Positions 14,142 through 16,532 of a DNA stretch of 64,000 nt are shown here, in pieces. A model generated the notes under the pieces. It did not search any database and was not told the DNA's origin. It worked only from the letters and a program-made list of their open reading frames with translations. This DNA comes from a bacterium (GTDB taxonomy: Bacteria; Actinomycetota; Acidimicrobiia; Acidimicrobiales; Bin134), in NCBI GenBank assembly GCA_026708015.1, contig JAPOVT010000057.1, positions 1 through 64,000 on the forward strand, read 5' to 3'. How positions within the stretch are numbered: position 1 is the first letter of the stretch; every line of letters starts with the position of its first letter. The position numbers were made by a program, and so were the translations under genes.

Positions 14142-15652
14142 TGTGAACCGGGGAACACCAGGGTGACGTGGCTGTGGGGCGGCATCACTAGGGGCCCGTC
14201 GATATCGACTTGGTCTTCGGTCGGTGTCACCCGATCGGAGTTTTCGGGGGTGTTGGCCGCGGCCGGGTCGTCGGCCCACAGGGTGATGCGCTGAGCCGGT
14301 CCACCGATGCCGTTGAGGTCCACCAGCAGTTCGTCGTCGGGCAGGCGGTTGACCAGCGATAGGTGCATTTGGCCGGAGTCGGGGTCGAAGGTGCCTGCCG
14401 CGTCCAGTGCCGATAGCCCGCCCCCTGGTGCATTGTCCGCGTCGATTCCGGCGACGGTGATCACCTCGACATCCAAGCCGGTGCCCTGGGCACAACGACG
14501 GGCCACCGCCAGAGGGTGGAACGTGGTTTGGCGCACAACGCCTTCGGTGGTGGTGAGGATCGGGCCCAGCACGTTCACCATCTGGGCCTGGGTGGCCAGC
14601 GACACCTTGTCGGGGTGGCGCCAAATCACATGCAGCCAGGTGGCGTGGGCCAGGGCGTCCTTGAGATCGAAGTGGTATTCGATCATGGGAACGGGCTCGG
14701 TATGCACCGGCGGTCCGACTTCGGCCCGCATCCGCCGATTGACCACCTCGGGTTGGTTGGTCATCGACAGGTAGGGCTCCGGCCACACCCCCCACTCGTC
14801 GATGCAGATCCGCAGATCATGGTTGAGCTTGCGCCGCCGCTTGGCCGCGCCGATGAGCCCCCAGGTGTCGCAGATCTCGGCTTCTGACGCCATCGGGCCG
14901 GCCAGAGCGCCTTCGTAGCTGAGCTCGTTCCAGTAGAAGTGCAGCGACAACCAGTCGAGCACCACGCCGGCCTCGTTGAGCACGGTCCAATTCCAGTCGG
15001 GGTCGTCGGCGCCCACCCCCACCAGCGAGATGCGGTTGTCGGCCCACCGCAGCAGCTTGCCCCACTCCCGGGCCAACTCGGCGTAGGAACCGGCCGAGGT
15101 GTGCAGGTGCTGCCACCACCCGAAGTTCTCGTTGCCGATGCCCCAAATGGGCACGTCGTGGCGATCGGGATGGGGTCCGCTTTGCCGCAGCGCCACCTCG
15201 GGAACCGGCAGATCGCTGTTGCAGTAGGCGAGCCACTCCAGGGCCTCGTCGATTGTCCCGGTGGAGGCGTTCAAGTTGAGATAGGGAGGGGCGCCCAGCA
15301 GTCGAGCGTAGGCCAAGAACTCCTCGGTGCCGAACCGGTTGGTCTCCAGCATCGACCAGGCCAGATCGAACCGGGCGGGACGGTCTTCGGTCGGCCCGAT
15401 GCCGTCGCGCCAGTGGTAGCCCGAGGCGAAGTTCCCACCCGGCCACCGCAGCACCGGCGGGGCCAGTTCCCGGGCCGCTTCCAGCACGTCGGTGCGATAC
15501 CCGTCGGCGTCGGCCAGCGGCGAGCCCGGCTCGAACACCCCGCCGTAGATCGCTCGTCCCATGTTCTCCAAGAACTGCCCGTACACCCGGTCGTCCACCA
15601 CCCCCGTGGTACGCCGGGAATCAACCAGAACGGTGGCGGTTGGTGTGGCCAC
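14138..15652 (-). CDS. GH51-type alpha-L-arabinofuranosidase
   Basis: This 504-residue protein matches glycoside hydrolase family 51, which removes arabinofuranosyl groups. The (beta/alpha)8 domain carries the acid/base Glu175 in WGIGNENFGWW and the nucleophile Glu286 in ICIDEWGVW. The N-terminal RWPGGNFASGYHWRDGIGP and the DWLSLHFYW strand are further family hallmarks. The C-terminal 120 residues form the beta-sandwich. No signal peptide is visible, as is usual for intracellular GH51 enzymes. It starts at a GTG that overlaps the previous stop by one base and lies between two PhyH dioxygenase genes, suggesting handling of an arabinosylated compound. Confidence 0.9.
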   Translation of the reverse strand: MATPTATVLVDSRRTTGVVDDRVYGQFLENMGRAIYGGVFEPGSPLADADGYRTDVLEAARELAPPVLRWPGGNFASGYHWRDGIGPTEDRPARFDLAWSMLETNRFGTEEFLAYARLLGAPPYLNLNASTGTIDEALEWLAYCNSDLPVPEVALRQSGPHPDRHDVPIWGIGNENFGWWQHLHTSAGSYAELAREWGKLLRWADNRISLVGVGADDPDWNWTVLNEAGVVLDWLSLHFYWNELSYEGALAGPMASEAEICDTWGLIGAAKRRRKLNHDLRICIDEWGVWPEPYLSMTNQPEVVNRRMRAEVGPPVHTEPVPMIEYHFDLKDALAHATWLHVIWRHPDKVSLATQAQMVNVLGPILTTTEGVVRQTTFHPLAVARRCAQGTGLDVEVITVAGIDADNAPGGGLSALDAAGTFDPDSGQMHLSLVNRLPDDELLVDLNGIGGPAQRITLWADDPAAANTPENSDRVTPTEDQVDIDGPLVMPPHSHVTLVFPGSQ

Positions 15653-16455
15653 TACACCACCAGCTGGCCGTCGCGAAGCAGGGGGTCGAAGCGGTATATG
15701 GGGTTCTTGAACCCGTCGAGATGCTCGAAACCCAAGTCGACGGTGCCCGCCGCGCAGCAGTGGTACACCATGGCGGCTCGGATGCCGTCAGAGACATTGT
15801 CGGTGGAGCAGTGCATCAAGTGACTGTCGAACACCAGCAGGTCACCCGGCTGCATCATGACCGCCTGGCGGTCGGACATGTCGTGGTCGACGATCTCCAC
15901 ATAGCCCAGATTGGCATTGGGCCTCCGGTCGAGGACGTGCTCGTGGACCGGTTCGGCGTGGCTGCCGGGCAGGATGTGCAGGCAGCCGTTCTCCAGGGTG
16001 GCCTGGGTCACCGCCAGCCACAAACCCACGATGGGCCGGGGCGGTTCGAACGGGAAGTAGTAGCTGTCCTGGTGCCAGGGCTGGCCCCAGGCGCCGGGGT
16101 TCTTGAAGATGAACTGCGACAAGAAGCAGTCCACATCGGGGCCGATCAGGTCGCGCAAAATCCTCGTAATCCGCTCATCGTGCAGGAACGACAGGAACGC
16201 CGGCCGGTCGTGCAGGGTGAACACTTTCGAAACGGTGTCTTCGGGGCGGTCGCCGCTCAGGTTCCCCTGGGACTCAGGGGCGACATGCATGCCCTCCGGG
16301 GTGATCCCCGACTCGTCCACCCCGCGCACCACGCCAATCACGTCGTCGAGCATCCGGTGGCCTACCTTGGCCGGGGCAAATTCGTCCAAAATGAAGAACC
16401 CTTGAGCGTGGTAGCTGTCGAGCGCAGAGGGGGGCAGGGTGGACGTCGTCGCCAT
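15652..16455 (-). CDS. Phytanoyl-CoA dioxygenase (PhyH) family protein B
   Basis: This 267-residue Fe(II)/2-oxoglutarate dioxygenase has His128 and Asp130 in GQPWHQDSYY, the later NGCLHILPGSHAEPVH loop, and the distal His215 in FDSHLMHCSTDN with Arg226 behind it. It is the first gene of the PhyH-GH51-PhyH unit. Its ATG directly follows the encoded CCA of the tRNA-Ala gene, with no base between them. No other plausible start exists before the conserved GFFILDEF segment. The mRNA therefore has no room for its own promoter or ribosome site outside the tRNA sequence. Confidence 0.9.
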   Translation of the reverse strand: MATTSTLPPSALDSYHAQGFFILDEFAPAKVGHRMLDDVIGVVRGVDESGITPEGMHVAPESQGNLSGDRPEDTVSKVFTLHDRPAFLSFLHDERITRILRDLIGPDVDCFLSQFIFKNPGAWGQPWHQDSYYFPFEPPRPIVGLWLAVTQATLENGCLHILPGSHAEPVHEHVLDRRPNANLGYVEIVDHDMSDRQAVMMQPGDLLVFDSHLMHCSTDNVSDGIRAAMVYHCCAAGTVDLGFEHLDGFKNPIYRFDPLLRDGQLVV

Positions 16456-16532
16456 TGGTGGAGCTGATGGGACTCGAACCCACGACCCCCTGCTTGCAAA
16501 GCAGGTGCTCTAGCCAGCTGAGCTACAGCCCC
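16456..16532 (-). tRNA. tRNA-Ala (anticodon TGC)
   Basis: The minus strand folds into a normal cloverleaf. The acceptor arms are GGGGCTG and CAGCTCC, which place a G3:U70 pair, the main alanine identity element. The anticodon loop is CTTTGCA with anticodon TGC, and the T arm contains GGTTCGAGTCC. The discriminator is A and CCA is encoded. The next base after CCA is the A of the ATG start of the downstream PhyH gene. Confidence 0.97.

Follow-up and report, generated by a model that had tools for sequence, protein, structure and literature searches.

Organization of the tRNA-Ala/PhyH locus

The window analyzed here is a stretch of 64,000 nucleotides from the genome of a bacterium of the Acidimicrobiales (contig JAPOVT010000057.1). 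On its reverse strand, a tRNA-Ala(UGC) gene is followed by a gene for a PhyH protein, an arabinofuranosidase-like gene of the GH51 type, and a second PhyH gene (Table 1). The tRNA-Ala(TGC) call of ARAGORN (16456-16532) includes the three spacer bases between the discriminator A73 and the ATG of PhyH gene 1, and the sequence read across the tRNA 3′ end was ...CAGCTCC A CCA ATGGCGACG. This ATG is the first start codon past the upstream in-frame stop of the ORF. The ARAGORN call, the ORF, and the sequence itself confirm the statement of the initial annotation that tRNA-Ala abuts the start of PhyH gene 1, including its coordinates. An assembly artefact could be ruled out, as the abutment is present in eight separately assembled genomes.

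Table 1. Features of the tRNA-Ala/PhyH locus and of related loci
Feature	Genome	Position	Strand	Support or remark
tRNA-Ala(UGC), body to discriminator A73	source	16459..16532	-	ARAGORN
Three-base spacer between discriminator and ATG	source	16456..16458	-	CCA here; first base is C74
PhyH gene 1, 267 aa	source	15652..16455	-	ORF, ATG at 16455; Pfam PF05721, E 5e-32
Arabinofuranosidase-like gene (GH51 type)	source	14138..15652	-	GTG start; Pfam PF06964; NF051901 below cut-off
PhyH gene 2	source	13293..14141	-	ATG at 14141; Pfam PF05721
Substrate-binding-protein-like gene	source	11731..13221	-	Pfam PF13458 just under cut-off; ~70 bases past PhyH gene 2
Probable -10 box TACGAT of the tRNA promoter	source	16543..16548	-	16 bases before tRNA base 1
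HpcH/HpaI aldolase gene	source	10852-11676	-	TACGGT 13 bases before ATG
Acyl-CoA dehydrogenase gene	source	16549-17751	+	Divergent; listed ATG 17 bases from tRNA-Ala
Insert between tRNA-Ala(UGC) and PhyH gene	G007	L113:3475-4925	+	HTH_17 gene and 248-aa gene without Pfam match
PIN-domain gene and FitA-like antitoxin candidate	G008	L212:109-740	-	PF01850; between tRNA-Val(GAC) and EamA gene
glmU	G027	2 bases behind tRNA-Gln		Pfam
Amine-oxidase-like gene	G026	2 bases behind tRNA-Leu		Pfam
GNAT gene	G046	3 bases behind tRNA-Thr		Pfam
Methyltransferase gene	G039	6 bases behind tRNA-Pro		Pfam

The GTG start of the GH51-type gene overlaps the TAG stop of PhyH gene 1 (TAGTG), and the ATG of PhyH gene 2 overlaps the TGA stop of the GH51-type gene (ATGA). 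Because of these overlaps the three genes were assigned to one operon; membership of the substrate-binding-protein-like gene is uncertain. The HpcH/HpaI aldolase gene carries a leaderless-type promoter of its own and therefore probably lies outside the unit led by the tRNA. On the other side of the tRNA, the acyl-CoA dehydrogenase gene is so near to it that both promoters must share the same short stretch; in the case of this gene, a later ATG suits the domain better than the listed one.

An alternative to be considered is that PhyH gene 1 begins at codon 7 (GTG in five of the species with an intact pair, CTG in two more, ATG in the eighth) and that the ATG adjacent to the tRNA is no start codon. 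Codons 2-7 appear to evolve neutrally, with a dN/dS of 1.0 compared to 0.19 for codons 13-260 (all 28 pairs of 8 sequences), so that coding conservation does not prove the ATG start, and in genome G007, in which the tRNA is detached, the gene begins about ten codons later. Against this alternative, a start at codon 7 would have to use CTG in the source genome and in G018, it is not preceded by a Shine-Dalgarno (SD) site, and the ATG is kept in all eight species. Two PhyH orthologues from other Acidimicrobiales (L114 and L116, 72% and 67% identity), which have no tRNA in this position, support the predicted ATG start, as they share it and carry TACCCT 15-16 bases before it, the place expected for a -10 box serving this codon. 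For glmU behind tRNA-Gln in G027 there is no space for a later start, with the nucleotidyltransferase core starting at residue 3 already. A later true start codon, raised in the initial annotation as a possible objection, was thus not borne out, but the evidence is mixed; we regard a start at codon 7 as highly improbable.

Conservation of the spacing in the genus and similar cases in the order

The tRNA-Ala 74-mer ending with the discriminator is identical in 20 of the 22 genomes of the genus and is present as a single copy in each, apart from a duplicate at a contig end in G010; a full-length tRNA-Ala was not found in the other two (G006 and G008). Named relatives are Acidimicrobiia metagenome-assembled genomes such as SB0677_bin_11 and Sva0996 bin134, which we take to be from sponges. 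A PhyH 1 protein with 80-94% identity is encoded in eight further genomes of the genus. In seven of the eight the gene lies directly behind the same tRNA-Ala, giving an intact pair in 8 of the 22 genomes, and in one (G007) it is detached by an insert of ~1.6 kb. Judged by eye, five genomes retain a scar of the PhyH start behind tRNA-Ala, which is clear in G010 and G021 and short in G003, G009, and G014. In G016 a different ORF with a weak MFS match lies 2 bases behind the tRNA, and in five genomes (G001, G004, G005, G011, and G019) nothing recognizable was found there. In three more distant Acidimicrobiales (L143, L144, and L145), a PhyH-PhyH pair is located 0.4-1.9 kb downstream of tRNA-Ala(UGC), accompanied in two of them by a GH51-type gene, so the neighborhood may be old.

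The initial annotation had suggested looking for the same arrangement in relatives, and it is indeed present: in all eight species with an intact pair, the ATG follows the discriminator A73 by exactly 3 bases. The encoded CCA, which had been presented as part of the tRNA-Ala gene, did not hold up as a conserved or key feature. It was found only in the source genome, and the spacer reads CTC in five, CAA in one, and CAG in one of the other seven species, so that only the first C is constant. The conserved feature is the spacing with the ATG at +3, and CCA is incidental. In all 44 tRNA genes read in the source genome, a C follows the discriminator, and 10 of them encode a complete CCA. Rfam lists 46 tRNA genes; the reading covered all except a tRNA-Phe whose T loop is unusual and a tRNA-Met at a contig end.

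The abutment, which had been described for tRNA-Ala only, turned out to be wider. Behind 3 of the 44 tRNA genes an ATG-led ORF of at least 150 amino acids starts at an offset of 2-6 bases. Three such ORFs were also found over the whole range of offsets 7-39 behind the same genes, giving an expectation of 0.45 close starts and, as a rough estimate for this one genome, a Poisson P of about 0.01. This excess is modest, and the exact spacing kept across species at three tRNA genes is stronger evidence against chance. Apart from tRNA-Ala, the ATG of a TIM-barrel gene follows tRNA-Gly(CCC) at +5 in all 16 genomes of the genus that have the gene, and the ATG of an EamA transporter gene follows tRNA-Val(GAC) at +4 in 15 of 19 genomes. 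The TIM-barrel protein is xylose-isomerase-like, below the Pfam cut-off; its N-terminus is longer in G000 and G018 with unchanged spacing, and CCA is encoded behind nearly all copies of this tRNA-Gly.

In the remaining 4 of the 19 genomes an insert parts tRNA-Val(GAC) from the EamA gene. The stretch of G008 listed in Table 1 recurs in G021 and G018 (L209 and L215) and looks like a toxin-antitoxin cassette that may have been inserted at the 3′ end of tRNA-Val. Two further candidate pairs were not retained. A xanthine/uracil permease gene lies 10 bases behind tRNA-Leu(CAA) in some species and farther away in others, and was kept only as a contrast; a TTG-led ORF at +3 of tRNA-Leu(CAG) was dropped, as it has no Pfam family.

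We also surveyed 38 genomes from other families of the order for a T-arm pattern followed by an ATG, which yielded at least 150 matches from 21 genomes. Among the matches listed, 104 sites with a spacing of up to 8 bases were counted, after setting aside 45 matches whose spacing was 9-12 and one duplicate of a site already counted. ARAGORN recognized 49 of these 104 listed sites as tRNAs, and behind 10 of them an ATG-led ORF of at least 150 amino acids starts after 2-8 bases. One of the ten ORFs runs through another tRNA and was left out of the Pfam scan; of the nine scanned, four have families (Table 1) and five have none. The tRNAs and genes concerned are unlike those of the genus, which indicates that the architecture arose more than once. 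A glmU gene also follows tRNA-Gln(UUG) in the source genome (L075), there by ORF reading at ~50-60 bases compared to 2 bases in G027 (L313); this represents one synteny with both spacings.

Expression signals and proposed processing of the transcript

A TACNNT box is present at -16 before tRNA-Ala in all eight species with the pair. A scan of positions 16300-16720 with the sigma-70 consensus, combined with a terminator search, returned no promoter-like or terminator-like site, and the TACGAT box was not picked up by it either. The 3-base gap has no room for a terminator or an SD site, and 5-10 bases before the ATG, where the sequence consists of the tRNA acceptor end CAGCTCCA and the spacer, there is no SD site. 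The earlier proposal that transcription of the operon has to run through the tRNA or start within it is supported.

We infer that tRNA-Ala and the PhyH operon may form a single transcription unit driven by the tRNA promoter, from which tRNA 3′ processing would release a near-leaderless mRNA in the manner of mitochondrial tRNA punctuation. RNase P would generate the 5′ end of the tRNA, and the 3′ end would be cut by RNase Z or by the actinobacterial activity whose cut falls between C74 and C75. This cut has been mapped in Streptomyces coelicolor, and the same cut is described for Propionibacterium acnes (PMC3848588). A cut at the discriminator or after C74, the two positions expected, would free a 5′-monophosphate mRNA with 2-3 bases before the AUG; the latter would leave CA, UC, AA, or AG. 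The initial annotation had assumed an mRNA starting exactly at AUG, and for this part of its proposal to hold, the cut would have to lie behind the CCA. It further proposed that expression of the operon may be tied to tRNA processing. Translation of the released mRNA would follow the leaderless route that is common in actinobacteria; for Streptomyces, 264 mRNAs with leaders of less than 10 bases are reported. The same process would operate behind tRNA-Gly(CCC) and tRNA-Val(GAC) in the genus, with leaders ranging from 0 to 5 bases across the abutting cases.

The source genome encodes an RNase Z-like protein (NF000806, 310.8 bits, below the cut-off of 363) and a homologue of the CCA-adding enzyme, below the curated cut-off. 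In some bacteria CCA reportedly inhibits RNase Z, and a CCA is encoded both at this locus and behind almost every copy of the tRNA-Gly; this counts against the processing model, as does the score of the RNase Z candidate below its curated cut-off. At minimum energy the precursor does not fold into a cloverleaf (z -0.22), a result that was counted against the model and is not decisive; nor is the finding that the first 62 bases of the released mRNA fold less than most shuffled sequences do (z +1.15). All in all, we consider release of the mRNA by tRNA processing the probable explanation. The broader notion that Acidimicrobiia regularly use tRNA punctuation for a set of genes, including glmU in one family, so that their translation would depend on tRNA end processing, is put forward tentatively, and we rate it somewhat below an even chance.

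Alternatively, a promoter within the tRNA gene could give rise to a primary leaderless transcript starting at or just before the ATG, with no part for tRNA processing. Starts at the ATG may be used elsewhere, as 5 of 7 relatives in which the same genes are detached (L114, L116, L209, L212, and L215) show leaderless-type -10 boxes, i.e. TANNNT at -19 to -11. Actinobacterial -10 boxes are loose, and conservation provides no test of an internal promoter because the tRNA is invariant. Against such a promoter speaks that TANNNT at -19 to -11 before the ATG occurs in none of the nine abutting cases (three of the nine being tRNA-Ala of the genus), tRNA-Val having only TACGGC, that the sigma-70 scan was without a match, and that seven different tRNA species would each have to act also as a promoter. 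We regard an internal promoter as unlikely. The -10-box contrast is weaker than the counts suggest, since the five detached relatives represent about two independent events. Of the other two detached genes, the PhyH gene of G007, which has a shorter N-terminus, carries an SD site (GGAAGG) instead of a -10 box, and L211 has neither in place. To judge from these sequences, attached genes may rely on the tRNA promoter and may gain a start signal of their own after detachment.

The genes might also be expressed by mere read-through behind the tRNAs, in which case processing would be ordinary and irrelevant to translation, and the close spacing would reflect compact genomes. SD-less initiation is common in the window, where an SD site is in place at 7 of 41 longest-ORF starts. 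The pairing is also not essential, as the gene has been lost, with a scar or nothing left, in 4 of the 11 genomes of the genus without an intact pair or a gap at the locus. On the other hand, ribosomes on the unprocessed precursor would have to initiate without the help of an SD site at a distance of 3 bases from the folded tRNA. Moreover, the three spacings are kept exactly, in 8, 15, and 16 genomes, and copies that became detached seem to have acquired start signals. This explanation appears to us less likely still than an internal promoter.

Comparison with known systems

In animal mitochondria, protein genes lie so close to tRNA genes that no leader fits between them, an arrangement known as tRNA punctuation of the transcripts. 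The loci described here resemble it in the position of the start codon directly by the tRNA 3′ end, conserved at +3, +4, and +5 at three tRNAs, and in the expectation that tRNA excision would make mRNA ends and leaderless mRNAs. Unlike in mitochondria, they lie on a bacterial chromosome, with one tRNA and one operon per unit and a tRNA promoter for each, and the arrangement is not a general principle of the genome, as it concerns 3 of 44 tRNA genes read.

In bacteria, leaderless mRNAs are for the most part regarded as products of transcription starting at the start codon. None of the nine abutting cases has a -10 box placed for such a start. A search of the whole window for a leaderless signal gave TANNNT at -13 or -12 before 6 of 207 candidate starts, a weak excess. 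PMC4681348 defines leaderless mRNAs by a leader of less than 10 bases. Compared with the actinobacterial leaderless mRNAs of PMC4681348 and PMC3848588, the mRNA proposed here would likewise have its start codon a few bases from the 5′ end and no SD site, but its 5′ end would be a monophosphate product of tRNA processing instead of a transcription start at the start codon.

Two other systems, in which tRNA and protein-coding sequence share one transcript, are comparable to the co-transcription proposed here. In the thrU-tyrU-glyT-thrT-tufB transcript of Escherichia coli, tufB is preceded by a normal leader in which an SD site fits, whereas the gap here is 3-5 bases. Plant dicistronic tRNA-mRNA transcripts have reportedly been discussed as a signal for mRNA movement; they differ from the role proposed here, in which the tRNA would serve as the maker of the mRNA 5′ end. 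A search of open-licence papers turned up no description, for any bacterium, of start codons that lie directly against tRNA genes.

Judging from the gene order, tRNA-finishing enzymes may also cut the front end of an mRNA, as in mitochondria. The arrangement is conserved, occurs at several unrelated tRNAs, and offers a clean test of whether a processed monophosphate mRNA is translated by the leaderless route. It further suggests that an insert behind a tRNA can sever the neighboring gene from its only promoter.
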